Shown piece after piece: positions 32,766 to 64,000 of a stretch of DNA of 64,000 nt. The translations under genes were made by a program, and so were the position numbers. This DNA comes from Selaginella tamariscina. Its lineage: Eukaryota; Streptophyta; Lycopodiopsida; Selaginellales; Selaginellaceae. The stretch spans positions 1,267,722 through 1,331,721 of the forward strand of contig PUQB01000058.1 in NCBI GenBank assembly GCA_003024785.1, given 5' to 3'. Position 1 is the first letter of the stretch, and each line of letters begins with the position of its first letter. The notes beneath the pieces are model-generated. The model saw nothing but the letters and a program-made list of their open reading frames with translations, made no database searches and was not told the origin of the DNA.

Positions 32766-32772
32766 CTACTCA

Positions 32773-34619: not shown

Positions 34620-34680
34620 ACTCATCTTGTATGTATATCATGTGTGTGCGTGTGTGTGTTAAATAAATTAAATTATACAG

Positions 34681-34726
<46 letters not shown>

Positions 34727-34986
34727 ATACAGGGGTGTGTGCCAGAGATAGATAAATCAATAAAATTATACAAATACACACACACACACACACATATATA
34801 TGTGTGTGTGGTGTGTATGTCTAGGAGTGTGCGTGTGTGTGCGAGAGATAGATAAATAAATAAAATTATACAGATACACACACATAATATATGTATGTAT
34901 ATATGTATATAGGTATATATATATATGTGTATATATATATCGTGTGTATGCATGTGTGAACTAAACAAATAAAATTATACAGATAA

Positions 34987-35020
<34 letters not shown>

Positions 35021-35200
35021 GTATGTATGTATGTATATGTATATGTATATATGTATAGGAGTGTGCATGTGTGTGCGAGAGATAAATAAATAAATAAAAT
35101 TATACATATACACACACATAATATATGTATGTATATATGTATATAGGTATATATATATGTGTGTATATATGTATATCGTGTGTATGTGTGTGTGAGCTAA

Positions 35201-35239
<39 letters not shown>

Positions 35240-35415
35240 CCAATATATGTGTATGTATATACAGGAGTGTGATGTGTGTGCGAGAGATAGATAAAACAAA
35301 ATTATTATATAGATACACACAGATATAAATGTATATGTAAATACAGATAAATAAATAAATTTTCTATCACACACAAATATATATACACAGGAGTGTGCGT
35401 GTGAGAGAGAGATAT
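34620..35415. repeat. TG/TA microsatellite block, outer element
   Basis: Repeated blocks of (TG)n, (TA)n and (CA)n are separated by a recurring phrase around GCGAGAGATAGATAAATAAA and AATTATACAGATA. It corresponds to 48310-49085 in the inner element. All long open frames here on both strands are repeat artefacts. Confidence 0.85.
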
Positions 35416-38025: not shown

Positions 38026-38068
38026 TTATTTATAGGAAAACACGGCGGCTTTAATGCTGTTTACAAGT
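38026..38068 (+). other. Possible 5' exon of the outer DUF7869-like gene
   Basis: A short conserved stretch ends at TTTACAA before GTAAGTATT, a strong splice donor, and the same arrangement exists at 51450-51486. In one frame it reads GKHGGFNAVYK, which looks like a protein-kinase glycine loop. If spliced to the 3' site before the first ATG of the DUF7869-like gene, the palindrome array would lie in an intron. This is inference from conservation of the two copies. Confidence 0.3.
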
Positions 38069-38214
38069 AAGTATTATAAATAAATTTAGAAATAGTTATA
38101 AAGATTTAAAATTAGAATTTAGGGGTTTAGGAATTTATTAGGATTACTTTATATTCCATTAAGGATTTATTCTATTTAAACATCCTTTTTACTTAATATT
38201 CTCGTTAGTCATGG

Positions 38215-39205
38215 CAGCATGATTAATCCGGCCATTTCTTTTTGCCTCTTTAAAGAGGTGGCGGGATTAATCTCGCCAACAACTTTTTGAAACATGAAAG
38301 CCGTGGCAGAATTAATTCGGCCAATGCTTCTCCGCCTTTTAAAAAGAGCAATGGGATTAATTTCGCCGATAACTCTCTGAAATGATGAAGAGTTAATAGA
38401 ATTTATTAAAAAAAGTTGTCCGCGGGATTAATTCCATCAACCATTCTAGGAGGCAGAGAAGGGGTGGCGGGATTAATCTCGCCATCACTTTCTGCTTTTA
38501 AAAGATTTGTGGGCAGGAATTTATCTCGTTGGTCAGTTTAGAATGCAGAGAAGCATTGGCAAGATTAATCCCCACCCCCCCTTGAGATGTCTCTGAAATC
38601 ATAGTTTCAGAGAGAGTTGTGGGCGGGATTAATCCCGCCACCTATTCCCCGTCAGTGAGAGTTATGGGTGGGATTAATCCTGCCGACTCTTCCTCGTCGG
38701 AGGGAGTTGGTGGCGGGATTAATTCTGCTGCCTCTCTACAATGAGGAAGAGCCGATGGCAGGATTAATCCTACTGACTCTTCCTCATCGGAGGGAGTAAA
38801 TGGCGGGATTAATCCCGTTGCCTCTCTCCGACGGAAAGAGCCGTTGGCGGAATTAATCCCATTGACTCTTCCTCATCGAAGGGAGTCAACGGCAGGATTA
38901 ATGCCGTCTGCTCTTCCTCGTCGGAAAGAGTGGCGGTGGGATTAATCCCACTGCCTCTTTCCCGTTGAAGGGAGTTGACGATGGGATTAATCCTGCCGAT
39001 GCTTTCCAACTGGGAAGAGTCAACAGCGGGATTAATTCTGCCAACTCTTCTTGTCGGAGGGAGTCAACGGCAGGATTAATCCCATCGACTCTCTCCAATG
39101 GAAAAGTCCCGCTGACTCTTCCTCGTCGGAGGGAGTCGTGGCGGGATTAATCCCGGCCACGATTTTATTGGACGGGGAAGGGGTGGAGATTAATCCCGCC
39201 ACCAG
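38215..39205. repeat. Palindrome array, outer copy, transposase side
   Basis: About twenty palindromes of the GGCGGGATTAATCCCGCC type occur, the later ones about 45 bp apart with spacers around GACTCTTCCTCGTCGGAGGG. Most are imperfect, with CA/TG replacing CG. It lies directly upstream of the DUF7869-like gene and matches 51650-52364 of the inner element. Confidence 0.9.
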
Positions 39206-39353
39206 TTGTATTAATTAAGTAAGAGATATTATCCCTATACATAATTATATATTATTGCACGTGCATATTATTAAGCACCCTCGACTCAGATTTTTTAGAA
39301 ATATTGCATAAACAGATATCATAAATAACACAATTATTTATGCACATGACAAT

Positions 39354-42109
39354 ATGTTTAATACTGAAGATAAAGTATGTCTTCTTTGGAACAATGAGAT
39401 AGTTGGCACTGGAACTGTGGAAGTTCGAGATGATAATGCATTATGTTAAATATTGCCCAAGGATCTTTTGTGTACATATGGGTGAACACCATTTGCAAAA
39501 ATGTTGAGATTCCATGAATGGAATTTGAAGAGGGTTCTCATGTATTGTGGAATATAGATGAAGTCAAGGCTGACACAGAATATGTAAAGTGACAAACAAA
39601 TAATAGTATGAGTTCACCAGATGATGGCTTGCCTGCTATGATGGATGAGGTGATTCTCTTTCTTCATGAGATCGAGGTTGGGAGAGGCATAATTACAGCT
39701 ATAAATCCAATGGAAGCTATCAGAAAGAAACTAGGGGCCGACTTCGTGGGTGTAGTTGTGACAGAGGTTTCACCTAATGGCACATTGCATCCTGGATCCC
39801 TCGTGAGGTGGCAAACATCTGAATTAAAATGGCAAGATGGTTCAACATATTCTGGGTTGGATTTCAATAATAACAACTCGGAAGGACAACCATATTTGAA
39901 AGGTTCCTTGCATTGGTCCTATAGTAAGAAAAAGGCGATTCATGGGTTGCAGATCTTCCCCTGCAAGTTTCGCAAGAGGGTCAAGATGGATCCTACATCT
40001 TCAGCAAGTATTTCCACGATTGACTGTTGCAAGAAGAATGTTTGTCAGATGGCAAACCGGAATGAAATTACCCAATGTAGACATGTCTTTCATACACTCA
40101 CCCAAAAGCAAAGGCATGAGTTTGTATATGCTGCACTAACTGGGTGTATTGATGGAATGGCCGGACACAGGTTATCAGAGTACATCCATGGTATTTAATA
40201 AGGTGGCCATCTGCTTCAAAGCTTGGTACAGTATATACGGGATCCCAAAGACCACGTTCTACCGTCGGAGGGATGAGTGGCTAGATGGAGCGCGAACCTC
40301 AGTACATGGGAACACTCGCTTGGTCAAAACCCGCTCTCACATTATGGCAGCCATAGAGATACTCAAGGCTTTTGTGGAAAGCAAATGCAAACAAGATGCT
40401 TTACAAATGCCGAACCACAAATGCAGGGGTCAAGAAAAATCTCAAGGTTTTGCCTTCAATCTACACTCAATTGAAGCTATGTGAACATGTCAACAAGTGC
40501 CTCAGTTTGATGGGGCTCCAAGTAATCTACACTGGTACCTTTAACAACATATGGAATACTCATTTTAAGGATGTGGAGATTCCAAAACACTCTAGTTTTT
40601 CCAAGTGTGACACTTGTACATCATTGAAGGCTGCAAAGGCTTGTGCAAAAACCTTGGTGGAGATCATTGCCATTTTAAAAAAAAGATGGAGGCCCACATG
40701 ATTGCATAACAAATTTGCCGATCTCAGTACTATGCACACCGCATGCTTTCTGTGTCACGCCCATGAGAATACCTATGCTTGATCCATGACAAGATGGATC
40801 ATTCAAAGACCAGCATTCTAAGGCTCATTGCAACACCAAAGTGCCTTGGGAATGTCATGAAATTTTCGATTTTATTGACATGTGTGCTAACATATGGACA
40901 CAGTTGTGAATCATATGGACACTTTTCACTTCCACATTGGTCTAACGACTCCAATTTCACTATTGGGTCATTGGCTATGTGTTCAGAAACCTTGAAGCCC
41001 ACTCACAAACAAGTCTTATGAGTGATCTCAAAGTGAAGAAACAACACCTTCAACCTTTACATAATGCTCTCATGAACACGTCTACACTTGAGGCTACTTA
41101 GGAATATGAGAGGCACTGTCAGCAGCTTGAACAAAAAACAGATGGCCCTGTTGAAAGTTCTGGTTCAATGGAGGGATTTAACTTAAATAGTGTACATGTG
41201 TACTCAACATCAAATAAGCTTCCTCGTCATTTGCTTTTAAAGATTAATAATTGTGTGGGCAAGAACAAAAATAGGTAAATCATTTTAGTTAAGGGTTTCT
41301 CAAGCTCATACTTACTTTTATTTTCTAGATATGTACTAGCATACTTGTCAATGCTTGTTGCCAAAGGTGTGTTTGAGACAATCACGCTGAGTTTCCTTAT
41401 GGTTGGTCACACTCATGAAGATATTGATGCATTCTTTAGCAAGGTCTGCAACTCTATAAAAAGGACAAGTGCACTTACCTTACCACATATGATGGATCTT
41501 TTTAAAAATTGCATCTCCAAAAAAAATTGTGCTTTGCTTGTGACTGAGGTGCTAGACTTCAAAAAGTTTTTCAAAGAGTATATAAAAGAGGGGAGCGATT
41601 CTTTAGTTGGTCACCTTGTGCCACTACAATTCTTTTTCTCTATAAGAGATGGTATACCTATTATGCAGTACAAGTTACGGCCATCAGAGCAGGAGTGGTT
41701 ACCAAAAGAGGGCTTAATGCTCTTCAAAAGTGGAGAGGATAGAAAGCCACTTCTCCCAGAAGGACAACCAGACCCTATTTCATTGAGTGCCCAGCTCAAG
41801 GAACAAGAGCTTATTATTGATGGCATCAAAAAATATGTGGCATGAGTTTAAAAAATCGATGTCAAAGAATTTTAATAAACCAACTGGTTACTCAAAACTA
41901 TAAGCATATGGTCGACTATTGGGAGACTTTTGTTCGAGAGTTAAAAGGGCCTATTGTCACAAGTACATAATTGCAACACCCTTTTGGCCTAAAATAAGGT
42001 GGCGAAAGGAGATTGAAATAACATCAATGAGCACAGACGACTTAGAAATTAGTAGTGATGTGGAAGTGCAACCCCACACTTTGTTATACAAAAGAACCAA
42101 AAACCTAAA
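39354..42109 (+). pseudogene. Outer DUF7869-like transposase gene, disrupted
   Basis: The first ATG is at 39354 (MFNTEDKVCLL). A 196-codon open stretch (39608-40198) covers IILFLHEIEVG-like, FVGVVVTEVSPNGTL, STIDCCKKNVCQM and FVYAALTGCIDGM. After a frameshift come WYSIYGIPKTTFYRRRDEW, KHSSFSKCDTCTSLKAA, IHDKMDHSKT, NKNR, a 54-nt intron (41275-41328), and FLMVGHTHEDIDAFFSKV (41396-41448). It has several internal stops. At 42109 it is cut by the inner element within the stretch corresponding to NQKPKAYFD; the last part resumes at 56143. The family is widespread in eukaryotes as DUF7869 (name from memory). Three conserved acidic sites (HDKMDH, DNC.GENKNR, HTHEDID) suggest a DDE/DDD-type nuclease. 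Confidence 0.75.
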
Positions 42110-42136
42110 ATGCACGTTGTAATTAAAGTGGGCATG
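42110..42136 (+). repeat. Left terminal inverted repeat, inner element
   Basis: It begins ATGCACGTTGTAATTAAAG and ends GGGCATG, matching the reverse complement of 56116-56142 at 24 of 27 positions, and of 56935-56961. It is directly preceded by the TAAA target duplication. Confidence 0.85.
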
Positions 42137-42645
42137 ATACGTGAAATTGGGAATATAAAATAAATTACTAATTAATACTTAAGTTTTAATTATTAATTAA
42201 TCATTTAATTAATATGTAATTAAGCCTTAAATATTAATTAATTAATTAATTAATCCTTCAATAACCTTACTTAGTAAGGAATATTCCTAAAATATCTTAG
42301 AATATTCATATTATTCTAAAAATAGTTTACAATAATGAAGAAATACTATCAAACATAATTACAAATGAAATCATTTTCTTATCAACATGTTAATTTATTT
42401 ATAAATACTTTCTTCCTAACCATACAGAAATCTCCTCATTTTGTCTAAATCATCACTCTCCGGATTAATCAAATCATTTTGGTCAATATCTTGATGTTGT
42501 TGCCACCACCTAACACTCTCACGAATGCAATTGGGAGTTGCCATCCTTGTTAATACATAAGATGTAATAAGACCAGGTCTGCATAAAGGCTCATCTAAAA
42601 ATGACGTTCCTTAAGAATAATATTATAAAGCGCCCGGTTGCTATC
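42137..42645. other. AT-rich subterminal DNA of the inner element
   Basis: There is no coding frame. It has a run of ATTAATTA-type repeats (42170-42260) and several AATATTC phrases like those in the right subterminal region (56000-56060). It is the likely 3' flank of the leftward transcription unit. Confidence 0.5.
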
Positions 42646-42647
42646 CT

Positions 42648-43660
42648 TCATTTTATAAAATTCAAAATCACGAGAAAGAAAAGCTTCAGGAAATGTTGAT
42701 ACGGTGGATACTGCTCACAAAAATTTTCGAGATTCTTCTTTCTGAGGCACGTATCCAAGTAGTTCACTAGCTCATCCATGATATCGGTATCAGAATATGG
42801 ATCGAAAGTGATTGGATGAATACAAGCAATGTTTTGGTTGAGCATAGCCTTCTGAGGAGAGTCGTCTACTACTAAGATATGTGCATTCTTCATTATCCTT
42901 AAGCGACTGATCTCCCCATGAGTCCCAATTATTCTTTCATTCTTGAAGAAGTATGGCTTGCTTTCCTTTCTTATATTGTGAAATTCGAGAGGTTTATAAC
43001 ACATTCGCTGGTCAAAAATCCAATCTTTACGAATCACCTCTTCTGCAACACTACAATGTTTCTTAAGCAAATTCAACAGCGGTGTTAAGTTATGAATCTG
43101 CATGCATGACCAAATCCCCACAAGCGCACCCATCTCCTTAAGCTTTTGAAAGAGACGATCCAACCCTGGACGAAAAATAATATCATATCGAAATTTACCA
43201 TGACAAGGAATGAAATCTCCTTGTTTGATTTCTTTTTTCCTATCCTCGGGCCTTTGTCGATGAAGCAGAACACCATTGACATCCAACAACACAATATGGC
43301 CATGAGTAACATGGATAGCGTTGCCTCTTGAATACTTTGCAAATCACTTGTTTGCTCCCTTTCACATTTATCCGTTGCCACTATCTCGTTGCCTATCCCT
43401 TCATCATTTAATTGTACATCATCCTTACAAGATTCAGATATTGCATGCGCTGAAGAAATTGATTTCGGAACTGAAGCCAATAAAAATGATGATGAAAAAA
43501 CTGAAGTGGCCCCCATGGTAACGATGTTTTGAGCTGCATTATTATCCATTTCCTGCATGAACTCTGTCATTCTGACATGTGGCACAAGAAATTGTCGCCA
43601 AACCCCTCTCTTACCTCATGCCAATGCTGAAAATCCATGTTCTCAATTGTTTCATTACAT
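42648..43660 (-). pseudogene. NIF/FCP1-type HAD phosphatase-like segment
   Basis: The open stretch 43292-42648 reads LLDVNGVLLHRQ near its start, the HAD motif I in the D-x-N-G form found in plant NIF-domain proteins. It continues with FRPGLDRLFQKLKEMGALVGIWS (motif II region, about 43115-43185) and LVVDDSPQKAML (42838-42875, the motif III acidic pair). Such proteins are related to CTD phosphatases. Upstream sequence to 43660 (a VPHVRMTEFMQEMDNN block, 43540-43585) is in another frame, so at least one shift near 43310 breaks it. An exon at 43712-43772 joins 43660 across a 51-nt intron, so it may be the C-terminal part of the methyltransferase-like gene rather than a separate gene. The first Asp of motif I is kept, but the second is Asn, so catalysis is doubtful. 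Confidence 0.6.
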
Positions 43661-43850
43661 CTGCAAAATGATAATTAGCTGACCTTAAAATTATCAAGGT
43701 ATATTATTTACCTTGTTAATGTGTGACCCATGTTTGAACTAAAAGCTTCATTAATCCTTGAGAATTTATTTTCTGTACAAATATAAACGAAATATACAAA
43801 AATGCCTTATGTTACACTCATTTACAACTATTCGTCACTCTAAGAACTCA

Positions 43851-44590
43851 TTAACAATTCTTCTTCGCTATTACCTTCTGAGTGAGGCGAAGAAGGTCTA
43901 AGCCGCTTGTGAGATGGTTCAGATCTTCTGTATCTTCTATTGATGTTTCCATGGGTAATGGAGTGTGCGAATGTTCTGTACTCCTCGAGATAACTTCCGG
44001 TCTAATATCTGATTGAAGTTCGTCCTCAGACTCCGACATTGAACCAGATTCGTCTTCAGAGCTATCGCACTTATCTGGAGGGAACTTTCTCAAATACTCC
44101 TTTATGGATTCGTTGGGGTAGTCAGTTGAGAACCTATCTATCCACTTGTTCAGGTCCTCAACCATGGTCTTATCCTTTTCAACGGCAAATACACATGTAT
44201 GCCGAAGGTAACACTCCTTCAAGACGGACCCCCTAGTGCAGTAGTCAAAAACCCACGCATCACTGTGAGGACCCCTGATCAAGTTGACGATGCTCCGTGC
44301 CGCTTGACTTGTGATGTTTGGATAACGTACATTGCCGAATACGTCACTCTCACCTATCGGTGTATCGGATGGAGGTTCAGGGCCGTTGGAGTGCAAACAG
44401 ATGCCTGGCCAGTCATTTGGAAGTTTGAAACTGTTTGGCGCATTCCTAACAACCAAGTGAACAACCGAATCAATGCACTTCGGATCAGCATCATTCATAT
44501 AAAATCCTGTCCAACGATGTTATTCCTCTTGGCAAAGGAGAAGGCAAAGGTATCGGTGACATGAGCAAGAATCAAGAAATAAATACCTGA
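43851..44590 (-). pseudogene. DNA N6/N4-methyltransferase-like segment
   Basis: The open stretch 44498-43851 follows a HVTDTFAFSFAKRNN block (about 44555-44510). It carries DVFGNVRYPNITSQAARSIV, then DAWVFDYCTRGSVLKECYL (44210-44265) and FAVEKDKTMVEDL (about 44145-44190). This resembles the C-terminal half of type-II-style DNA amino-methyltransferases, where a D-x-x-x-G-x-G-S motif and a later Glu bind SAM. Here one glycine of the loop is Arg. I do not find a clear D/N/S-P-P-Y/W catalytic motif in the upstream exon (44640-44830 has VMDRRV at about the place expected). A Ser/Asp/Glu-rich tail (43990-44090) follows. It could be an inactive or divergent enzyme. The end near 43870 is probably a splice donor, not the true stop. 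Confidence 0.5.
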
Positions 44591-44619
44591 AAAGTATATC
44601 AGTCAAGAGTGCAAGTATG

Positions 44620-46930
44620 AATTCAATAATAAATACCTTCTTTGTACATACTTGCACGGCTAAGTTTCTCCACCAAATCCTCTAGTGTCCTGTCTGTCGA
44701 AGGATTTTTTGACACCCGCCGATCCATCACGAACAATTGAAACGGTTTCCTACAAGCAGTGATGTACCCCATAAAGTCTCCGAATCCAACAACAAACATC
44801 TGTAGGGCTTGTCGTGATTCGTAGCATCCTCCTTTATAAGGTTCAACTCGGTTCTCCGCTGCTGAAGGACTGCCATAAGAGAAGGCGTCATCGCAATGTT
44901 CTCCTTTTTGGCGTTGGCGTGCAATAGATTCTTGCCCAGATCTTCCGATTGATTCACCCATTCGACAAGCATATCATCATTTGTCACATGCAAATATTTG
45001 CTGACCTCTTCGTATGTTGAAGCCGAAATCCAACCCAGTTTGTGGCAGTGTATTCCCAACCACTCCTTGAAGTGCCTGACCGTCTTCAACTCCATTGCCT
45101 TGAGATGAAAAGGAGAGGTGGGCTGCTGTTGTTAATCTGTAATTTGCCATCAATCACCAAATCAGCCAAGACTTCCATCTCCTCCATCGTTGTTCCATTT
45201 AAAGGCTTCAACCATGTGAGCTTGAAATCGTTGTCTACATCCTTTATAGATTGAACAGACTTAGCCTTCGGCGTCTTACTGGGTTTCTTTGCAGACTTCT
45301 CTGAGGGCTCCACTTCACTTGTCTGCTTCTTCTTCAGTGTTCCTTTTGAAAAGGATTCCATAATCCCCAACCATTTCGCAAAGATCCTATCCTCGGGACA
45401 AGAAATCAACATCATCAAAAAGGATGTTTCCTTCCCGCCCACCTGGGCAAAATCAACTGCTACAATTTCTTCAACTCTCTGAGAAAAAGACAGATTAATA
45501 TACCGGCGAGATAAATCCCGCCCAAACAATTTGCTTACCCGGTAGTCCGCAGATTGTGTATTCCCTGCGGTAGCTCTTTGTGGTCGCTGAAGAGATTCCC
45601 ACACGGCTCGCGTGTGTTTGAACTTCTCCCATATTTTGCTGTTGTAGTGGTTGGTGTCTGCAGCGTCCCATTCCGCCGATAACTTATGGTACTGCTCGAT
45701 TGTGAGATTCGGCTTCGCTAAAAACGCCGATCTTTTTGTCAGCTTCTCACGGGTATGCTCGGAAAGTTTTGTTGCCATCGTTCCTTTGTTGTGTTCGTCG
45801 AGAAGTCGTTGGGCTGCCGTTATTGTGTGCTGGCCACTAATGATGTAGTACTTGATGATTTTCTATTCTCCGTCTGAACCTTCCTCATTTGTTCCGGTGT
45901 TGTGATCCACACTTTGTCAGCGCCTTTTTTCTCAGTAGTATGCACACAAAACAGCATTATGTGGAACGGTGTAAGAATTGTCGTCCTTCATCTTCTCCAT
46001 GAGCTCAGCTACACGTTCCTGATTGAGTGGCCTGTAATTGAAGTTTGGGTTGACGCTGCAATACTTAACCCTACACTCGTAAATCCTATCATCCAACATC
46101 ATTTCCTTGTGGCTTATTGCAGCATGGATGCCACAGGTGCAGCTGACAAAACGACGATTTTTTTTTACGATCCGAATCAACATGTGTGATCCCCGATTGA
46201 TGCTGTTCTAATGTTCTCGGCACACTCTTCCAGCTCCCGAAATTTGCTAAGCAAATTGAACGTGATCTGTAAAGAACCTGAGACCAAGCCACCCTCTCAA
46301 TCTCCTTATGATGTCGCTGTGTTCTTCTTCAATGTGAAGAGGGAAGATTGCTCCACTTGTGATTTTCTGTATTGTGAAGCAATCTCCTGACAATACACCT
46401 ACTCGATGAGTCTGAAGATCTTCGAAGTAGACATCCAGTTGGATCCCCTCCATAGATGGGCTTTCGTTGAGTTGAAGAAGAACTCCAAGGTCAACATCAT
46501 TAGTGAACACGTGAACGTCATTATCCACAAGTCGACAAAACCACCCGAAATTAATGTTGTAACTGGTGACCTCTGGATCCGAGAACGTGACATTGGATGG
46601 AACAAGGCATATGTGTCGAGCATCGTCAATCTGGGTTCGCAGCATGCTTTCGGATGCTTGACTAGACACCCACTTTCCATTGTTTTGCTTGTCCATGCGA
46701 TGTGACAGAGGTTAGTTTGACAGCAACCATGGTTGTTCCAATGCGCTTCCCGTTTAGTTTGAAATATGGCCAAGTTGATTCCAGAATCCCCCTGCCCATC
46801 TCTTCTCCTGCTCTCGTCTTTAATGTCACCTCAATTCCACATCTGAATACAAAAATGATTAGTTCAAGCACATATCCGAGTATAACAGATTTTATTTTAA
46901 TTCTTACCCAGAATTTGACGACGACTCCAT
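44620..46930 (-). pseudogene. ParB/DGQHR-like N-terminal part of the leftward gene
   Basis: Exon 1 is 46930-46908 (MESSSNS) and a 65-nt intron ends at 46843; exon 2 starts CGIEVTLKTRAGEEMGRG. Further blocks are LVPSNVTFSDPEVTSYNI, YFEDLQTHRVGVLSGDCF, then CSVNPNFNYRPLNQERVAEL (about 45990-46085), TTPEQMRKVQTEN and YYIISGQHTITAAQRLL (45805-45865). The last three fit a ParB-type domain, in which an I-x-G-x-x-x-x-x-A-A motif forms the nucleotide-binding turn. A coiled, Lys-rich linker and the FKEWLGIHCHKLGW block (45000-45095) follow, leading to the methyltransferase-like segment. Single-base shifts occur near 46690, 46260, 46140 and 45865. A 60-nt intron (45479-45538) is phase 0. ParB domains fused to DNA methyltransferases are known from phages and bacterial mobile elements. 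Confidence 0.55.
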
Positions 46931-47262
46931 ACTAATGACTCGATCTCCTTGTTTGATTAAATCGTCCTTCTGCAAAATAATACACTATGAATACAAATCA
47001 TATAAAAACGCACACACACTTGTATAAACCCGAATATACAAAAATAATACACAGAGAGAAGTAGACGGAATTAACTGTCCAAAGCTCACTTTGTGCTAGT
47101 GCAAAAGAAAGATAACATTTCGTTTTAGAACCACCACAAATGTGAGCTCTGGACAGTTTTACATAGTTTCCTAGCTTTTACTCGAAATATATGATGATAA
47201 AAGTAAATAAAATGAGATATGCAACTTATATATACTAATACACATATATATTCACATGGAAG
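46931..47262. other. 5' flank of the leftward gene, inner element
   Basis: This is AT-rich, with a CA-rich bit near 47010-47017. Two phrases around TGTCCAAAGCTCAC (47076) and GTGAGCTCTGGACA (47141) are imperfect inverted repeats about 50 bp apart, able to form a hairpin; the outer copy has the same. No TATA box is obvious. Confidence 0.35.
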
Positions 47263-48310
47263 GTGCGGCGGGATTAATCTCGCCACCCCTTCAATGCCTC
47301 CTGAAAGAGTGGGCGGGATTAATCTCGCCACCTTTCTGGAGGCCTTGAACGGGAGTGCGGAATTAATCTTGCCACCCTTCTCGGTCTCAGAGAGAACTGG
47401 GCAGGATTTATTTCACACCCCTTCAGTGACTCCAGAAAGGGGCGGGATTAATCTCGCCCACCATGTAAGGGATGGTTAAATGAATCTCGCCACCCTTCCC
47501 AGCCTCTCCATTGGTATGTTGTAAACCTTCTACGTCTCAGACAGAAACGTTTGGGATTGGTCCGACTCACCAATGGAGAAAAAAAGGGTGGCGGGATTCA
47601 TTCCTCCAACAGGCATTGAAGGCTCGGCGGGATTAATCCCGCCGCCCAGGCCTTTCACTCGGTCCCTTTGCTGCGAGATTAATCCCGCCGGACGCCAATG
47701 CCCTACGCGGAATCGGACGGGATTAATCCCGCCGCCTAGGCCCTTCAGGCAGGCCTTTGGCAGCGGGATAAATCCCGCCCAATTCCACGCAGGGCATGCG
47801 TACGCGGCGGGATTAATCCCGCTGCCCAGGCCCTTCACTCGGGCCTTAGTCAGTGGGATTAATCCCGCCGGACGCCAATGCCCTGTGCGAAATCTGACGG
47901 GATTAATCCCGCCGCCTAGGCCCTTCAGGCAGGCCTTTGACGGTGGGATAAATCCCGCCCGATTCCGCGCAGGGCATGTGTACGCGACTGGATTAATCCT
48001 GCCACCCAAGCCCTTCACTCGGGCCTTAGTCGGCGGGATTAATCCCGCCGGACGCCAATGCCCTGTGCGGAATCCAACGGGATTAATCCGTCGCCTAGGC
48101 CCTTTAGGCAGGCCAATGGCGGCGGGATAAATCCCACCTGATTCCGCGCAGGGCATGCGTAGGCGGAGGGATTAATCCCACCGCCCAGGCCCTTCACTTG
48201 GGCCCTGTGCGGAGGGATTAATCCCACCGCTCATTTGGCTAACCGAATAACCTACCTGAAATGGCGGCGGGATTAATCCCGCCGCCAAGTGGCTAATTAT
48301 ATAGCGGCGG
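47263..48310. repeat. Palindrome array, inner copy, leftward-gene side
   Basis: Copies of GGCGGGATTAATCCCGCC start at 47626, 47672, 47716, 47762, 47806, 47852, 47896, 47942 and 47986, so spacing alternates 46 and 44 bp. Spacers follow a fixed order, giving a higher-order unit of about 180 bp with four palindromes, repeated about three times. Every fourth palindrome has ATAAAT instead of ATTAAT. Because the palindrome has no stop in two of three frames, long open frames appear on both strands (47573-48130 plus, 47530-48156 minus); I do not consider them genes. Confidence 0.9.
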
Positions 48311-48725
48311 ATTAATCCTACCGCTACACACACATAGATATATATATATGTATATGTGTGTGTAGGAGAGTGCGTGTGTGTGTCAGAGATAGTCAAATCA
48401 GATAAAATTATACAGATACACACACCACATATGTTATGTATATACAGGAGAGTGCGTGTGTTGTGCGAGAGAGAGAGAAAATAAAATAAAATTATACAGA
48501 TACTGGTACACATAATATATGTATGTATACATAGGTATATATATATATATATGTGTATATGTATATCGTGTGTATGCGTGTGTGAAACAAATAAAAATCA
48601 TACAGATAAACAACACACACACACATATATATACAGGAGTGTGCGTGTGTGTGCGGAGATACAATTAACAAATCAATAAAATTATACAGACACACACCAC
48701 ACATATATATAGATAAATAAATAAA

Positions 48726-48764
<39 letters not shown>

Positions 48765-48856
48765 GTGTCACACATATATATAATATCTACGTGTGTATAT
48801 GTATACGAGTGTGCGTGTGTGTGAGAGATAGAGATCTATAGAGAAGAGAGAGAGAA

Positions 48857-48937
<81 letters not shown>

Positions 48938-49085
48938 CTATGTGTGTATATGTATACGAGTGTGCGTGTGTGTGCGAGAGATAGAGATCTAAATTATATT
49001 ATTAAGATACACACACATATAAATATATATGTGAATAAAAATAAATAAATAAACTCAGAGGAGTGCGTGTGAGAGAGAGAGATCT
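48311..49085. repeat. TG/TA microsatellite block, inner element
   Basis: Blocks of (TG)n/(TA)n with the recurring phrase AGGAGTGTGCGTGTGTGTGC and AATTATACAGATA correspond to 34620-35415 in the outer element. It contains a nearly pure (AT)n tract of about 75 bp at 48859-48932. Confidence 0.85.
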
Positions 49086-51445
49086 CACCTGTGTGAGAGA
49101 GAGAAGGAGATTTCGCGCCGCCGCGCCTTACAAACCCTAGGAATATACTTAAACCCTAAAAGGAATAGAATATATATTAACCCTAATCGAATATTCCTTC
49201 TAAGAATATACTTAAACCCTAAAAAGAATAAACTATAGATTCGCCCTAAACGAATATTCTTTCATTATATTATCAGCGTGTGCGTGTGCGTGGGTGTATC
49301 ACATACACCCCAAGAATAAATATCATGCAAGGGTTTAACACGTGTGTGTCCATGAGAGTGTTAAAGTTTCACGTGCAGCGATACATATATACACACATAG
49401 TATTATACACATAGACATACATACATATTAGTACATATTAATATTAGAGAGACAGAGTACAGATCATGTATGGTGTGTATGTATGAGAGAAGAGTGACAA
49501 TACATATTATGGATCATGCATGGTGTGTATGTTTGAGAGAAGAGACAGTACATATTTACATGGATCATGCATGGTGTGTATGTATGAGAGAAGAGAAAGA
49601 GTGTTAACAAATTAAATTCATACACAATGTCATTGCATATATTAGTACACACATATACATACACACGTGTATACACACAAACATACATACATATTACATG
49701 TGTAAATTCAATGTGTTACATAGGGTTTAGGGTTTAGGGTTAGGATGGATCATGCATGGTGTTTATGTATGAGAGGAGTGAGTGTTATACACAGATATAC
49801 ATTATACATATTACATAATATTGTAACATCAGTACATATTATGGATCATGCATGGTGTGTATGTATGAAGAAGAGACAGGCTACATATTATGGATCATGA
49901 TCATGCATGGTGTGTATGTATGAGAGAAGGGATTATGCATGGTGACACTGTGTATGTATGAGAGAAGAGATAGAGTGTTAACAAATGAAAACCGTACACA
50001 TTGCATATATTAGTACACATATATACATACACACGTGTATACACACAACATACATATATATTACATGTGTAAATTCAATGTGTTACATACACACAGATTG
50101 AGTACATATAGATCATACATGCGTTGAACATGATGTTTTTCAATAAAGAAGCAACATATAATTTCTCAAGTTTGGTTTAGGGCAATGTGCATGTGTGTGC
50201 ATATGTGTCTTTGTAAGTGCTTCTAATGCGTGTGCACGTGTATATATAAATTTATAATCGTGTTTATATATAATATGTGCAAAACAAACATCGAATAATT
50301 AAGAAAATAATATTAATATACACACTATGAACATATTTTAAATTATACATAATAATATATGATTTTATCTAATATATAGCCATATATAGTTTTAATAATA
50401 TATATTAATTTAATATTGATAATAAGGTTTAACATTAGAATATTCTTGAAATAATAAGAAATTAATTGAGAAAATCCCATTAATATATACAAATGTAGAT
50501 CAAGTATTGAAATAATTAACTAAATTAATTATGATAATCATGTTTAATATTGAAATATTCTTGGAATAATAAGAAAATAATAAAGAATATCACATTAATA
50601 TAAAGAAGATTAATTACTCAAGTAATTAAGAAAATGAATTAATATACACACTATGAACATATTTTAAATTATACATAATAATACATCATTTTATCTAATA
50701 TATAGTCATATATAGTTTTAATAATATATATTAATTTAATATTGATAATAAGGTTTAACATAGGAATATTCTTGAAATAATAACAAATTAATTGAGAAAA
50801 TCCTATTAATATATACAAATGTAGAATAATTACTGAGATAATTAAGAATAAGACTAATTTAATTATGATAATCAGGTTTAATATTGGAATATTCTTTCAA
50901 TATTAAGAAAATAATAAAGAATATCCCATTAATAGTAGGAAATGTAAATTAATTACTCGAGTAATTAAGAAAATAATAATAATAAACAGACTATGAATAT
51001 ATTTTAAATGATACATAATAATATATCAATTTATTTATTGTATTAGTGTATATATATATATATATATATAAACTCAATATATATACTTGAATATTAAGAA
51101 TGTAGAACAATTACAAAAATTTCGTAATATTAAACAGCTTGAAGCACTTGAATAACATTAAATGCAATTTTAAAACACTCATTGGAATTGGAGAGTATAT
51201 ATGTCAGACTGTCGGTTATTTGTTTCAACTCATCTTAAATTTTCTTTTCTGTTATTTCAAAAATTTGAATTTCTGACATAAGTATTATCAGTCTGACATG
51301 TAAATTTGAAAATACATTTAATTTCCCACTCAAATTCAGATCTGGTTCTTTCTCCGGCAAGGGTTTCTTCATTTCTTTATTTTTCAAGATTTTCTTTTTT
51401 CTTCTTAGTGATCAGCTCAGGAGCGACATTAAATTGGGTGCGCTA
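49086..51445. other. AT-rich spacer of the inner element
   Basis: No gene is visible. It holds two AATATACTTAAACCCTAAAA phrases (49140, 49205), a minisatellite of about 50 bp around ATTATGGATCATGCATGGTG (49440-49600 and 49740-49980), a short TTTAGGG-type run (49723-49742), and a tandem duplication of about 330 bp (about 50305-50630 and 50631-50975). It matches the outer spacer 35416-38025. Confidence 0.6.
49722..49743 (+). repeat. Short telomere-type TTTAGGG run
   Basis: Three consecutive units, TAGGGTTTAGGGTTTAGGG followed by TTAGG, carry the standard plant telomere repeat. It has no counterpart in the outer element at the same place, so it arose after the copies separated or was lost from the other. 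Confidence 0.7.
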
Positions 51446-51486
51446 TTGTTTATAGGAAAGCACGGCGCCTTCAGTGCTGTTTACAA
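51446..51486 (+). other. Possible 5' exon of the inner DUF7869-like gene
   Basis: A conserved stretch ends TTTACAA before GTAAGTATT. It reads GKHGAFSAVYK in one frame. A matching acceptor could be the TTTATGTGCAG just before GACAATATG at 52513. In that case the intron of about 1 kb holds the second palindrome array. Confidence 0.3.
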
Positions 51487-51649
51487 GTAAGTATTATAAA
51501 CAAATTTAATATATTTATAAAGATTCACTCTCTTACATTCTCTCTTAAATTTTAGAATTTAGGGATTTAGGAATGCATTAGGATTACAATATATTCTGTT
51601 AGGGATTTATCCCGTTTAAATATACCTTTAACTTAATATTCTCGGTTAG

Positions 51650-52364
51650 CCGGGGCGGCGGGATTAATCCGGCCATTTTTTTTCGCCTCTTTGAAGAGGT
51701 GGCGGGATTAATCCCGCCACCATCTCTTTCATAGTTATGGCAGAATTAGTTCGGGCAATGCTTCTCCGCCTCTTAAAAAGAGCGGCGAGATTAATCCCGC
51801 CGATAACTCTCTCAACTGATAATGATTTACTTGAATTTATTAGAAAGAGTTGTCGGCGGGATTAATCTCGCCAACCATTTTAGGAGGCAGAGAAGGGGGC
51901 GGGATTAATCTCGCCAATACTTCCCTGTTTTAAATATTTGTGGGCAGAATTCATCCCGAATCTCTTTGAAATCATAGTTTCGGAGAGAGTTGTGGGCGGG
52001 ATTAATCCCGCCGCTTATTCCCCGTCGTCAGAGTTGTGGGCGGATTAATCCCCGCCTATTCTCCGTCGTCAGTGTTGTGGGCGGGATTAATCCCGCCCCC
52101 TCTTCCTCGTCGGAGGAATTTGCGGCGGGATTAATCCCGCCGACTCTCACAGACGAGGAAGATCCGGCGGCGGGATTAATCCCGCCGGTACTTCCTCGTC
52201 GGAGGGAGCCCGGCGGGATTAATCCCGCCGCCTCTCTCCGACGAGGAAGTATCGGCGGCGGGATTAATCCCGCCGACTCTCTCCGATGGGGTAGAGTCGA
52301 CGGCGGGATTAATCCCGCCGACTCACTCTGAAGGGGTAGAGTCTGCGGCGGGATTAATCCCGCC
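51650..52364. repeat. Palindrome array, inner copy, transposase side
   Basis: About fifteen palindromes occur; seven consecutive perfect 18-mers GGCGGGATTAATCCCGCC start at 52080, 52124, 52169, 52212, 52257, 52302 and 52347, at 43-45 bp steps. Spacers carry GACTCTCTCCGACGAGGAAG-like sequence and its reverse in alternation. The array ends about 150 bp before the first ATG of the DUF7869-like gene, a position suited to promoter, enhancer or transposase-binding functions. The open frame 51990-52331 across it is an artefact of the palindrome. Confidence 0.9.
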
Positions 52365-52518
52365 CATCAGTTATATTAATAAAGCATGAGATATTATCTT
52401 TATACATAATTATGTATTATTGCACATGCATATTATTAAGCAACCGCAGTTATGATTTCTTAGAAATATTGCATAAACAGATATCATAAATAACACAATT
52501 ATTTATGTGCAGGACAAT

Positions 52519-55500
52519 ATGTATAATACTGGAGATAAAGTATGTCTTCTTCGGAACAACGAGATAGTTGGCACTGGAACTGTGGAAGTTCGAGATGATA
52601 ATGCATCATGTCACAATATTGCCCAAGGATCTTGTGTGTACGTATGGGTGAACACCATTTTCAAGCATGTTGAGGTTCCTGGAATGGAATTTGAGGAGGG
52701 TTCTCCTGTATTGTGGAATTTGGATGAAGTCAAGGCTGACACAGAATATACAGAGTCACAAAACAAACAGTAGCACGAGTTTTCCAGATGATGGCTTGCC
52801 TGCTGTGATGGATGAGGTGATTCTCTTTCTTCATGAGATTGAGGTTGGGAAGGCATCATCACAGCTATAAATCCAATGGAAGCAGTGTCAGAAGAGAAAC
52901 TAGGGTCCGACTTCGTGGGTGTAGTTGTGACAGAGGTTTCACCTAATGGCACTTTGCATCCTGGATCCCTCGTGAGGTGGCGAACATCTGAATTAAGACG
53001 GCAAGATGGTTCAACATATTCTGGGTTGGATTTCAATAATAACAACCCGGAAGAACAACTCATATTTGAAGAGGTTCCTTGCATTGGTCCTATTGTAAGA
53101 AAAAGGCGATTCATGGGTTGTAGATCTTCCCCTGCAAGTTTCAGCAAGAGGGTAAGATGGATCCTACATCTTCCGAAAGTGTTACGAGCATTTCCACGAT
53201 TGACTGTTGCAAGAAGAAGTGTTGTCAGATGGCAGACCGGAATGAAATTACCCAATGTAGACATGTCTTTCGTACGCTCACCCAAAAGCAAAGGCATGAG
53301 TTTGTATATGCTGCACTAACTGGGTGTATTGATGGAATGGCCTCGGACACAGGTTATCAGAGTACATCCATGGTATTTAATAAGGTGGCCATCTGCTTCA
53401 AAGCTTGGTACAGTATATACGGGATCCCAAAGACCACGTTCTACCGTCGGAGGGATGAGTGGCTAGATGGAGCGCGAACCTCAGTACATGGGAACACTGG
53501 CTTGGTCAAAACCCGCTCTCACATCATGGCAGCCATAGAGATACTCAAGGCTTTTGTGGAAGCAAATGCAGACAGGATGCCTCACAAATGCCGAACCACA
53601 AATGCAGGGGTCAGGGAAAATCTCAAGGTTTTGCCTTCAATCTACACTCAATTGAAACTGTGTGAACATGTGAACAAGTGCCTCAGTTTGATGGGGCTCA
53701 AGCAATCTGCACTGGTACCTTCAACAACATATGGAATACTCATTTTAAGGATGTGGAGATTGCAAAACACTCTAGCTTTTCCAAGTGTGACACTTGTACA
53801 TCATTGAAGGCTGCAGAGGCTTGTGCAAAAACCTTGGTGGAGATCACTGCCATTCAAAAGAAGATGGAGGCCCACATGATTGCACAACAAACTTGCCGGT
53901 CTCAGTACTATGCACACCGCATGCTTTCTGTGTCACGCCCATCAGAGTACCTGTGCTTGATCCATGACAAGATGGATCATTCAAAGACCAGCATTCCAAA
54001 GCTCTTGCAACACCAAAGTGCCTTGGAAATGTCATGAAACTTCCGATTTCATTGACAGGTGTGCTAACACATGGACACGGTTGTGAGTCATATGGACACT
54101 TTTCACTTCCACATTGGTCTAGCGACTCCAATTTCACTATTGGGTCGTTGCCATGTGTTTCAGAAACCTTGAAGCCCACTCACAGACAAGTCCTATCAGT
54201 GATCTCAAAGTGAAGAAACAACACCTTCAACCTTTACATAATGCTCTCATGAACACGTCTTCACTTGAGGCTACTTGGGAATATGAGAGGCATTGTCAAC
54301 AGCCTGCACAAAAAATAGATGGCCTTGTTGAGAGTTCAGGTTCAGTGGAGGGATCTAGCTCAAATAGTGTACATGTGTCCTCAACATCAAATAAGCTTCC
54401 TCGTCATTTGCTTTTACAGATGGATAATTGTGCAGGCGAGAACAAAAATAGGTAAATCATTTTACTTAAGGGTTTCTCAAGCTCATACTTACTTTTATTT
54501 TCAAGATATGTGCTAGCATACTTGTCAATGCTTATTGTTGCCAAAGGTGTGTTTGAAACAATCACGCTCAGTTTTCTTATGGTTGGTCACACTCATGAAG
54601 ATATTGATGCGTTCTTCAGCAAGGTCTCCAACTCTACAAAAAGGACAAGTGCACTTACCTTACCACATATGATGAATCTTTTTGAAAACTGCATCTCCAA
54701 AAAAAGTTGTGCTTTGCTTGTGACTGAGGTGCCAGACTTCAAAAAAATTTTCAAGGAGTATTTAAAAGAGGGGAGTGATTCTTTAGTTGGTCACCTTGTG
54801 CCGCTACAATTCTTTTTCTCCATACGAGATGGTAGACCTATTATGCAGTACAAGTTACGGCCTCAGAGCAGGAGTGGTTACCGAAAGAGGGGTTAATACT
54901 CTTCAAAAGTTGAGAAAATGGAAATCCACTTCTCCTAGAAGGACAACCAGACCCTATTCCATTGAGTGCCCAGCTCAAGGAACAAGAGGTTATTATTGAT
55001 GGCATCAAAAAATATGTGGCATGGGTTCAAAAATCGATGTCAAAGAATTCTGATAAGGCAACTGGTTACTTAGAACTATATAAGCATGTGGTTGACTATT
55101 GGGAGACTGTTGTTCGAGAGTTGGAAGGGCCTACTGTCACAAGTACAGAATTGCAACACCCTTTTTGGCCTAAAACAAGGTGGCGAGAGGAGATTGAAAT
55201 GACATCACTAAGCACAGACGACATAGAAGCCAGTAGTGATGTGGAAGTGCAAACCCCACATTTTGTTGGACAAAGGAACCAAAAACCTAAGGCATACTTT
55301 GATTGCTGCTAGGATCTTCAAAAACTAATGATGGTTCTCATTACTCCAGATGCATCATATAATCAGCCTATTTGGATGGGTCAAATTATCAACACACCTG
55401 AAGTAATCACAAAAAATAGTATTGTTAAGGTTGCATGGTTCAAACCACAGAAAAGGCGACACGAGAAGGAGAGCGAAAGATATAATGGATGCCTAGAGAA

Positions 55501-55540
55501 ACATGGTCTCCCAATCAAAAAGACCCAGCATGTTTTATAA
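52519..55540 (+). pseudogene. Inner DUF7869-like transposase gene, frameshifted
   Basis: The first ATG is at 52519 (MYNTGDKVCLLRNNE), after a possible splice acceptor. Segments in order: GSPVLWNLDEVKADTEY; DFVGVVVTEVSPNGTL; a Cys-rich STIDCCKKKCCQM; FVYAALTGCIDGM; YGIPKTTFYRRRDEW (helix-turn-helix-like); SKCDTCTSLKAA (C-x2-C); LIHDKMDHSKT; HGCESYGHFSLPHW; LQMDNCAGENKNR; a 54-nt intron (54452-54505); FLMVGHTHEDIDAFF; and a C-terminal WMGQIINTPE..KVAWFKP module like a BAH or Tudor-type fold. The three acidic/His clusters resemble a DDE-type catalytic core. Frameshifts near 52770, 52860, 53140, 53690, 54020 and 54870, plus a stop at 55309, break it. The breaks differ from those of the outer copy, so the parent gene was probably intact. 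Confidence 0.75.
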
Positions 55541-56115
55541 ATGTTAAATCCATTCGATATGGGTGGATGTCAAGAAGCGTTGATAAAGTCACGATTAACA
55601 AAACTGCAAGGGAATGTATGTTTTCTGAAGCTTAAAGCAATTACAAAATTATAAATATCATATATTTAATATTTATAATTATTATAAACTCTTTAATAAT
55701 AGTACCAAATTGTTTACTTAACTATATAAATTTAAAAAATGATATGGAAGATTGACTATATTATATAGGATTTTATATATATATTATTACTACTACAAAT
55801 TTTTAATTAATAATGTTATATTTAAATATTAATATTTTAATAACAACATCAATATTTATAATAATGTACCTCTTATGCTCTTCCTTAATTGTTATATTAG
55901 GCAATATATTATATAATTTAATACCTTCTACTTTTATAATGTTATTAATTTTTGTTCAATGAATGCTATAATTTATTAAAGGGTCGAATACAAAATAGAA
56001 TATTTTAAAGAATATTCTGTTTTTCAAACATATATTCTAAAGAATATTCCTTTAATATTAAAAAATGCTAATTAAATAGCTAAAATTGCTAATTATTAGG
56101 AAATGGGACTATAGC
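55541..56115. other. Right subterminal DNA of the inner element
   Basis: This is AT-rich, non-coding 3' flank of the DUF7869-like gene. It contains several AGAATATTC/GAATATTC palindromic phrases (about 56000-56060). It is matched by 56380-56934, which belongs to the outer element. Confidence 0.6.
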
Positions 56116-56142
56116 CATGCCCATTTTAGTTACAACATGCAT
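56116..56142 (-). repeat. Right terminal inverted repeat, inner element
   Basis: It starts CATGCCCATTTTAGTTAC and ends ATGCAT; its reverse complement matches 42110-42136 at 24 of 27 positions. TAAA follows at 56143-56146. Confidence 0.85.
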
Positions 56143-56961
56143 TAAAGCATACTTTGATTACTGCAAGGATCTTTAAAAACTAATGATGGTCCTTATTACT
56201 CAAGATATTAGCACACCTGAAATAATAAAAAAAATAGTATGGTTAAGGTTGCATGGTTCAAACCATAAAAAAGGCGACGTGAGAAGGAGAGTGAAAGATA
56301 TAATGGATGCCTAGAAAAAACATAGTCTCCCAATCAAAAAAATTCAGCATATTTTATAAATGTTAAATCCATTCGATATGGGTAGATGTCAAGAAGCGCT
56401 GATAAAATTATGATTAACAAAACTGTAAGAAAATGTATGTTTTCTGAAGCTTAAAGCAATTACAAAATTATAAAATATCGTATATTTAATATTCATAATT
56501 ATAATAAACTCTTTAATAATAGTACCAAATTGTTTACTTAATTATATAAATTTATAGAAAGATATGGAAGATTGACTATATTATTATAGGATTTTGTATA
56601 TTATATATATATTATTACTAGTACAAATTTTTAATTAATGTTATATTTAATATTAATATTTTAATAACAACATCAATATTTATATAATGTACCTCTTATG
56701 CTCTTCCTTAATTTTTATATTAGACACATACAATCTTAAATATAATATATTATATAATTTAATACCTTCTACTTTTATAATGTTATTAATTTTTGGTTCA
56801 TAATTTATTAAAGGGTCGATTACAAAATAGAATATTTTGCCTTCAAATATATATTCTAAAGAATATTCCTTTAATATTAGAAAATGCTAATTAAATAACT
56901 AAAATTTCTAGTTGTTAAGAAATGAGACTCTAGACATGCCCATTTTAGTTATAACATGCAT
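56143..56961 (+). mobile_element. Outer element, right end resumed
   Basis: From TAAAGCATACTTTGATTAC this segment continues the outer DUF7869-like gene cut at 42109. It is collinear with 55285-56142 of the inner element, including KVAWFKP-like coding remnants near 56245 and the TAAATGTTAAATCCATTCG phrase, but with a deletion of about 32 bp near 56208 and more substitutions. It ends in a terminal repeat (56935-56961) with ATGCCCATTTTAGTTATAAC. Taken alone it looks like a tandem duplication of the element's tail; nesting explains it better. Confidence 0.85.
56935..56961 (-). repeat. Right terminal inverted repeat, outer element
   Basis: It differs from the inner right repeat (56116-56142) at one position (TTATAAC for TTACAAC). 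The next four bases, ATTA, would be the target duplication, but the outer left end is missing so it cannot be confirmed. Confidence 0.75.
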
Positions 56962-57775
56962 ATTACCTCTAGTAAGGGATATCCTTAACAGATGTCCTCC
57001 CTCCCATGATTTTGTAGCTGATCTCTAATCAGCTGTGGCTGTGGGTATTCTCAGTCGAGGCCTGGGTTGGTATGGGCCATCGGTGATGGTTAGGTCTACT
57101 ATCGGGATTGGGTCTGGCCCTACATAGGTGGTGCTCCTGTATGGCCATGGTACGTCCAAGTTATTCCTTAAGGATTACGAAGGTGGTTGGTGATTTGATC
57201 CATGAGCTCCCATACTGTATTGTATTGCATCGCACTTTGGGCGTTCCCCTTACGGCCCTCTACTTGCCTGCATGGTGCCTTCCCTAGTGGGGGCCCTCGT
57301 GACTTACGCGGGGCGAGCCTTGTGGGTGGGTGCGGAATGCCGCTACTTCATTGTTGTTCAGTCCTATGTGCCCGCTTGGCCCTTGGTATTCTAGCGCTCG
57401 GAACTCATGCAAGGGTGCCTGGACTTGCTTCATTAACACGGATATCAATCCCCTCTTGGTGTGGAATCTTACCTGCTTATCCCCTCTTGGCGTGGAATCT
57501 TACCTGCTTGTGTTCCTAGTCATGGTGCACCTTTGCGCCCTTAAGCCAGGGCAACCTAAAAGCACGCCAAATCCCCTGTTGTGTGCATGTTGAGGATGAC
57601 GACATTTACTAAAATTTAATAGTTTGAATCTCGACTTGCATTGCCCTTAGGATACGTTGGGTGTTACCTTGGCTTGGTTTTACCATGCGTACATGGAAGG
57701 GAGCAAGCTTCAAGGTTGGCATACCTAGCTCTCAATGAAGTTCCGTTAAGATGATATTCACTGATTTTATATGTT
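56962..57775. other. GC-richer block, unidentified
   Basis: Base composition rises sharply compared with both sides. A 30-bp phrase around CCCCTCTTGG.GTGGAATCTT is repeated in tandem at 57451 and 57481. Overlapping plus-strand frames (57202-57519 and 57330-57593) have no recognisable domain. It may be part of an unrecognised retroelement or LTR. Confidence 0.3.
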
Positions 57776-58384
57776 TTGTTTTCATCACACCTTACACATA
57801 TGTACACCATGCTAATTAGCATGCTCTTTTATTTTAATGTATTTGTCCATATGAATTTTAGTGCATGCTTATTACTATATTATATGTATTTGTGTATGAA
57901 TTTTGATATTTGTTTTACGACGAGAGATGGTAAGTATGAATATGGTCAGACTAGTGGATATTCATATGGGCAAACTATATCCAATTATGAGATTGATAGC
58001 AGTGAATATGCATATACTCGGAATGTGCTTCATGGTAAGTATGATTGTACTCATGCTACCTATGATCAAGGTGGACATTTCCATGAGAAATATTATTACA
58101 AAGAGGACTCTAACAAGCAGGGTATAAGGCAAACTCCAATTAGGAACACGCGAGCTCGTGTTGCAGATGTAGAGGTGATAGCTAAGCAAGTTACAAAAGT
58201 AGACAGTGCTCGCGAGAAGATGGATATCAAGATGAACACAACTATTGTTGAGACTAGGGCAACCACTACAAAGACTACCCTCCGTATATGGAAGAAGGTG
58301 ATTGCAGGGGATCCAATGATCAGTATCACCAAGACAAGAGATTTATTGCTGGTAGAGATGGCAAAAGGTATCATCCAGAACTAG
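57776..58384 (+). CDS. Hypothetical Tyr/Lys-rich ORF
   Basis: The 202-codon open frame has two parts. The first 48 residues are hydrophobic and look like translated AT-rich DNA or an intron. From about 57918 (RDGKYEYGQTSGYSYGQ) it is rich in Tyr, Asp, Gly and Lys, like an RNA-associated or disordered protein segment. In the last 130 bases another plus frame (YKDYPPYMEEGDCRGSNDQ, ending KRYHPELGFGRRV and TAA at about 58409) looks more protein-like, so a frame change or an intron near 58255 is possible. I recognise no family. It may be an exon of a broken gene. Confidence 0.25.
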   Translation: MFSSHLTHMYTMLISMLFYFNVFVHMNFSACLLLYYMYLCMNFDICFTTRDGKYEYGQTSGYSYGQTISNYEIDSSEYAYTRNVLHGKYDCTHATYDQGGHFHEKYYYKEDSNKQGIRQTPIRNTRARVADVEVIAKQVTKVDSAREKMDIKMNTTIVETRATTTKTTLRIWKKVIAGDPMISITKTRDLLLVEMAKGIIQN

Positions 58385-58409
58385 GGTTTGGTAGAAGGGT
58401 TTAAGGTTT

Positions 58410-61400: not shown

Positions 61401-61588
61401 TTTAGTATATTCTAATATGTTCTAGCATTTTACATTCCTATTGTGAAATAATTATATTTAAGATGGGGCAAACAACATACCTAAGATTAACAAATAAAGG
61501 AAAAAGAAAAGTGTTTATAACCTAATTTAAAATGTTTTACCTATCTACTATTTGGCCTAGTTGTCTCAAACACATACATAAGAACTAT
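58410..61588. other. AT-rich intergenic DNA
   Basis: I find no convincing gene in about 3.2 kb. TG microsatellites lie at 58531-58546, 59023-59038 and 60599-60614. Some stretches between 59300 and 60500 have a repetitive flavour that could be an eroded retroelement, but no domain can be read. Confidence 0.45.
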
Positions 61589-61651
61589 TTTAAGAAAAAT
61601 ATTAGATAATGAGATTAACACATGTTTAAGGCAAGATTAAACTTGGCATAA
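61589..61651. repeat. Left copy of a 63-bp direct repeat (tandem F-box unit)
   Basis: The 63 bases at 61589-61651 recur without visible change at 63938-64000, the last bases of the window, 2349 bp apart. The repeat spans the stop codon and last codons of the F-box gene, so it marks the start of a second tandem unit. Confidence 0.9.
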
Positions 61652-62676: not shown

Positions 62677-62735
62677 AGAACCAATGAGAGAAACAAAACA
62701 AACAAAACCTAATGAAAAATCTAAGAAACCCTAGG

Positions 62736-62743
62736 CTTTTATA
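62736..62743 (-). promoter_or_regulatory. TATA box of the F-box gene
   Basis: TATAAAAG on the minus strand, 60-67 nt before the ATG. The short leader between contains a pyrimidine-rich GTTTTGTTTCTCTC segment just before the start, typical of plant 5' leaders. Confidence 0.55.
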
Positions 62744-62759
62744 CTCTGGCTACCACGCA

Positions 62760-63937: not shown

Positions 63938-63963
63938 TTTAAGAAAAATATTAGATAATGAGA

Positions 63964-64000
63964 TTAACACATGTTTAAGGCAAGATTAAACTTGGCATAA
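63964..64000 (-). CDS. Second F-box copy, 3' end only
   Basis: The last 37 bases encode YAKFNLALNMC followed by TAA (63964-63966), the same C-terminus as the F-box gene at 61615. The rest lies beyond the window edge. Direct evidence covers only the final codons; that a full second gene follows is inferred from the 2349-bp tandem spacing. Confidence 0.65.
   Translation of the reverse strand, partial: YAKFNLALNMC

Follow-up and report, generated by a model that had tools for sequence, protein, structure and literature searches.

A 14-kb transposon copy in Selaginella tamariscina and its giant, probably Sola1-like family

Ends and extent of the element

The 64,000-bp stretch of the Selaginella tamariscina genome analysed here (contig PUQB01000058.1, positions 1,267,722 to 1,331,721; hereafter the window) contains a 14-kb segment with short inverted ends, which raises the question of what kind of element it is. 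An earlier note on this DNA had described a very large cut-and-paste element with inverted 27-bp ends at 42110 and 56142, 24 of 27 positions matching, and TAAA on both sides. Self-comparison of the window placed this terminal inverted repeat (TIR) transposon copy, named element B, at 42110-56142. B very probably belongs to a recently active family of giant DNA transposons, likely of Sola1-like type, which carries a probable DUF7869 DDD transposase, an accessory gene and arrays of palindromes.

As read in the sequence, the left TIR of B (42110-42136, plus strand) is ATGCACGTTGTAATTAAAGTGGGCATG and the right TIR (56116-56142, minus strand) is the inverted ATGCATGTTGTAACTAAAATGGGCATG. Re-reading of both TIRs confirmed their length of 27 bp with 24 matches and 3 mismatches, and TAAA was seen at 42106-42109 and 56143-56146 as the two copies of a target-site duplication (TSD). 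The ends, TSD and size in the earlier note therefore stand, and its cut-and-paste mode is the part that we infer, from the enzyme class and the TSD.

Copies across the genome and target-site duplications

The genome assembly (300,702,823 bases in 1,391 contigs) was searched for further copies, and many were found. Exact matches to the left end (pattern with Y at one position) and the right end (pattern with two variable positions) numbered 1,099 and 1,346, respectively, and the reversed-pattern controls gave 0 and 0. Left-end candidates numbered 992; 40 of them, the window's own included, were scored and share 99-100% identity with B across about 295 bases. Twenty of the 39 other scored copies were fetched. 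All 20 started at the identical base, and their flanks differed except for copies L015 and L022, which represent one site; on its own refuting conditions, the earlier note is thus upheld. Because TAAA was part of the query for this first sample, it contains an excess of A-rich left flanks. Compared across their first 3.8 kb, the 20 fetched copies and B fell into two groups, 99.3-99.8% and 97.0-97.3% identical to B, respectively. No exact TIR was found among the viral contigs searched.

Among the first listed ends (contigs C1-C169), 40 of 81 left ends had a correctly oriented right end at most 40 kb away. The paired lengths were within 13.65-15.09 kb in 25 of the 40 pairs, with a median of 14.63 kb for all 40. 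If every one of the 1,099 left ends belonged to a full-length element, the median of 14.6 kb would put the family at roughly 16 Mb, or about 5% of the assembly; this figure is approximate, as a partner was found for only 40 of the 81 listed left ends. Copy L027 is complete at both ends and 8,361 bp long, and lacks the part corresponding to 49.9-55.1 kb of B.

A second sample, picked by TIR pattern alone, consisted of 29 of these 40 left/right pairs; eight pairs longer than 16.5 kb were omitted, as were two that had their right end in common with a further pair and the already examined L027. A perfect 4-bp TSD was present in 17 of the 29 pairs, all 17 tetranucleotides were different, and none was longer than 4 bp. 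When the right flanks were shuffled 2,000 times, the mean was 0.79 perfect TSDs and the maximum was 6. In the 12 pairs without a TSD, copies may have recombined, the assembly may have jumped from one near-identical repeat to another, or the ends may have been mispaired. Chance or an assembly artefact as the source of the family is ruled out by the genome-wide counts, the zero reversed controls and the 17 of 29 resolved duplications.

In the first sample, the right end was present in 11 of 14 fetched right-end pieces, so that, counting L027, both ends are known for 12 copies. Flush 4-bp TSDs were found in L015 (the site shared with L022), L019, L025 and L026, and in L012 and L023 the TSD came with an additional A at the left end. 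The TSD of L027 matched at three of four bases, that of L014 was ambiguous, and L016, L024 and L028 had none.

Insertion into an older copy

The earlier note had stated that removal of B and one TAAA restores collinearity with the gene of a related copy. The collinearity was reproduced, and the interrupted gene proved to be a transposase gene of the same family rather than a host gene. When 38832-42109 is joined to 56147-56961, the sequence aligns without a break across the junction to 51981-56142 of B, with 89% identity to the left of the junction and 83% to the right. B thus sits inside the transposase gene of an older element of its own family, copy A, whose portions lie at 27649-42109 and 56147-56961 on the plus strand. 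The homology of A to B starts at 27649, and A ends at 56961 with its own right TIR at 56935-56961. Its left end was not found: with up to 8 mismatches allowed, the rest of the window holds no further TIR, and A is therefore taken as left-truncated.

Of the 14 right-end pieces of sister copies searched, 9 contained the uninterrupted site AACCAAAAACCTAAAGCATACTTTGATT with a single TAAA (8 exact, 1 with an extra A), so the empty sites proposed as a check do exist; the other 5 gave no match, and there the site may fall outside the 2-kb piece. Self-nesting also occurs elsewhere: family sequence adjoins the left ends of L016 and L023, L012 is flanked by what looks like the phosphatase region of the element itself (see below), and the copy at C80:563980 begins 249 bp inside another copy starting at C80:563731. 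In L016 (G000:C1175), considered with L034, the left flank matches the plus orientation of B and the right flank reads like its minus strand, which suggests rearrangement or misassembly between copies.

A further repeat of about 1.7-1.8 kb is present in the window as two inverted copies (28048-29815 and 32772-34619, about 92% identical). The one at 28048-29815 is flanked by TAAAG stretches, where it interrupts A as compared with B; it has the ends TGTCA..TGACA and is probably another small mobile element.

The probable transposase gene

The plus-strand gene at 52519-55635 encodes a protein with a profile match to DUF7869 (PF25273), which is the probable DDD transposase of the element, as judged from its relatives and the predicted RNase H-like fold of one of them. 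A probable 54-nt GT..AG intron at 54452-54505 contains an in-frame TAA. The protein search returned 168 relatives, 120 of them listed, and the nearest named relatives among those listed came from mosses and a liverwort. Four Asp residues were invariant in an alignment of 72 relatives and lie at RNase H-like places in the structure model of one relative. In a fold search with this model, the first 32 of the 50 matches shown were transposases or retroviral integrases, and further down there were also proteins of the Argonaute type and an unrelated protein from Tetrahymena; the matches mainly span residues 193-560, so the remainder of the protein was barely tested. A pattern derived from the DUF7869 alignment matched 54 stretches of viral contigs, none of which was confirmed.

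With the short intron spliced out, the DUF7869-type transposase would have about 1,020 residues. It would recognise the 27-bp inverted ends, excise the element and join it to a target cut with a 4-bp stagger, showing little preference for sequence. The gene is frameshifted in B as assembled and open in other copies. Small indels separate even copies with almost no substitutions between them, so the frameshifts of B may partly be assembly errors. Because its own transposase reads frameshifted, B may have moved in trans by means of sister copies with open transposase frames.

Opposite-strand genes

A large minus-strand gene lies in pieces at 43851-46830, with open reading frames (ORFs) at 43851-44519, 44727-45131, 45086-45862 and 46247-46711 and their neighbours. 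Its product, which selection has maintained, would be an accessory protein, probably of a ParB-like plus DNA-methyltransferase type. By eye, ParB-like motifs were seen near 45.8-46.1 kb of B and a methyltransferase-like C-terminus near 44.2 kb. In copy L014, a 478-codon frame contains the segments NPNFNYRPLNQERVAELMEKM and IISGQHTITAAQRLL, which we take to be ParB-like, and a 273-codon frame contains WVFDYCTRGSVLKECYLRHTCVFAVEKD, presumably resembling motif I of amino-methyltransferases. The segment FDYCTRGS looked methyltransferase-like by eye and had no significant search match.

No search backed either part of this assignment. The protein search found no homologue of the opposite-strand protein, comparison with Pfam and PHROGs gave only sub-threshold matches to unrelated families, and comparison with PDB sequences and phages gave nothing or chance matches, with one chance-level match for the ParB-like part against phages. 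The DPPW/DPPY motif expected in the methyltransferase part was not seen, and its place reads DRRV, which is identical in 20 copies and B.

The large gene is under purifying selection, clearly so in its middle part. Between the two groups of copies, nonsynonymous (dN) and synonymous (dS) divergence was 0.013-0.020 and 0.10-0.14, respectively, in the middle part, 0.026-0.065 and 0.068-0.171 in the ParB-like part, and 0.034-0.041 and 0.061-0.089 in the methyltransferase-like part, which has one stop in 9 of 9 group-1 sequences. By these values, the constraint is weaker in the parts other than the middle. Of 89 copies scored for the 478-codon frame, 56 have it open from end to end. The transposase and accessory frames scored were the best of 6,526 and 6,704 candidates, respectively, and open frames are therefore over-represented among them.

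The minus-strand gene nearest the left end, at 42648-43343, is an ORF for an NIF (NLI-interacting-factor-like) phosphatase (PF03031, E 1.3e-12). Its counterpart in L014 is longer, with 363 codons (PF03031, E 3.1e-11), and dN and dS between the groups were 0.006-0.010 and 0.015-0.020, respectively, again a weaker constraint than in the middle part of the large gene.

Palindrome arrays

Two arrays of GGCGGGATTAATCCCGCC, a perfect 18-bp palindrome, and of its matches with up to 3 mismatches lie between the divergent genes. The first (47267-48283) is beside the start of the minus-strand gene, the second (51657-52364) is beside the start of the plus-strand gene, and the units are mostly 43-46 bp apart, or 44-46 bp in the first array. 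The 12-bp core of the palindrome occurs 18 times in B and 25 times in the window, with no occurrence at 1-27648 or 56962-64000. Of the 20 fetched copies, for which the first 6-9.8 kb each were available, 19 contained 3-19 cores, and the remaining one has a 5-kb run of N in that region. The exact 18-mer occurs 27,128 times in the genome and its backward reading 0 times. Of 100 listed 18-mer places, all on contig C1, 95 were at most 12 kb inward of an exact end, a rule that covers 6.2% of that stretch of C1. The distribution of the 18-mer and its core follows the element copies and their ends, and the arrays thus travel with the family.

An AT-rich tandem repeat with a 326-bp period (50296-51038) lies between the two arrays. 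A like repeat of about 326-bp period is present mid-element in A (36896-37682), again between the two palindrome arrays.

Classification

The earlier note had found that the ends and TSD follow the rules of none of hAT, CACTA, Mutator, piggyBac and Tc1, and comparison with each of these families agreed. hAT elements generate 8-bp TSDs, whereas the longest in the 29 pairs was 4 bp. CACTA/EnSpm elements have CACTA-type ends and 2-3-bp TSDs, and here the ends are ATGCA.. and the TSD is 4 bp. piggyBac and Kolobok share a 4-bp TSD and DDD/E enzymes with this family but target TTAA, and the 17 different tetranucleotides reject both. Ginger elements also have 4-bp TSDs, with TGT ends. The DUF7869 protein and ATGCA ends differ from Ginger, a TIR element known in plants, for which an integrase-like enzyme is given in the available part of PMC10741241. 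By the same source, Mutator has TSDs of 7-12 bp, which were absent from the 29 pairs, and Tc1/mariner has a TA TSD, which is not the case here; the fold resemblance to Mos1 is general only.

The earlier reading missed the Sola superfamily, which fits: a 4-bp TSD and a DDD transposase are described for it, and its elements can be larger than 15 kb (PMC10741241, in part). This family resembles it in the 4-bp TSD (17 of 29 pairs; TAAA in B), in the DDD-type enzyme predicted from the invariant Asp and the model of a relative, and in the 27-bp TIR, within the Sola range of 11-1124 bp. It differs in size, typically 14-15 kb here, while most Sola elements are 2-9 kb in the available parts of PMC10741241 and PMC3627910. 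Giant Sola-1 elements are described in the available part of PMC12477816, among them Sola1-1_Ec32 of Ectocarpus, a 21.5-kb element with a transposase and an opposite-strand ParB-like plus DNA methyltransferase gene. It is alike in being giant and in pairing a transposase with a large opposite-strand gene, and unlike in its larger size. ParB and methyltransferase parts are described there, whereas here the motifs were seen by eye with no significant match. The palindrome arrays and NIF phosphatase found here are not mentioned in that part of its description. In its size, 4-bp TSD, DDD enzyme and layout the family is like giant Sola1 elements, so it is probably Sola-type; Sola1-like is the best-supported label, with DUF7869 likened to Sola by description.

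Alternative explanations

The same transposon biology would also hold if DUF7869 enzymes formed a separate superfamily with 4-bp TSDs, a view that we consider rather doubtful. In its favour, the searches linked DUF7869 to no named superfamily, and a literature search by that name found no publication. Against this, the 4-bp TSD, DDD enzyme, TIRs, size and large opposite-strand gene agree with the Sola and Sola1 descriptions as far as these were available, and Physcomitrella, a plant Sola1 host listed in the accessible part of PMC9033089, also appears as a named host of DUF7869 relatives. It is also unlikely, though somewhat less so, that B is a dead or non-autonomous passenger moved only in trans in a family whose activity is over. 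The shifted transposase and accessory frames of B and the internally deleted 8.36-kb L027 with both ends point in that direction, but some of the shifts may be assembly errors, dozens of scored copies have open frames, and the identity to the nearest neighbour over 3.8 kb is 99.1-100% for the 20 copies and 99.8% for B. A recently active Sola1-like family is preferred on both counts.

Within the Sola1-like reading, the arrays are most likely binding sites of the accessory protein or the transposase. That they are instead mere satellites or promoter-proximal selfish repeats with no dedicated binding protein is a serious possibility, if short of an even one: their copy number varies between elements as in satellites, yet the exact 18-mer is preserved in its many thousands of copies and the arrays of B adjoin both divergent gene starts. 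More speculatively, the transposon could carry an epigenetic or partition-like system addressed to itself: the ParB-like protein could bind the arrays as ParB binds parS and mark, silence or activate the promoters of the element, and the family's own amplification would have seeded about 27,000 such sites over a 300-Mb genome; we hold this specific form to be improbable. With near-identical ends at about 1,000 places in one genome, readable TSDs and dozens of open scored frames, the role of the accessory gene and its possible DNA target become directly testable.

Other repeats and open frames

Five tandem units of TTTAGGG had 177 overlapping matches in the genome, and TTTAGGG arrays occur about every 5 kb at G000:C165 14153-34323. 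In the window, ORF fragments at 24721-25637 resemble, by eye, the integrase region of a Gypsy-type retrotransposon. A 371-codon open frame on the minus strand lies at 61618-62730, outside A and B.

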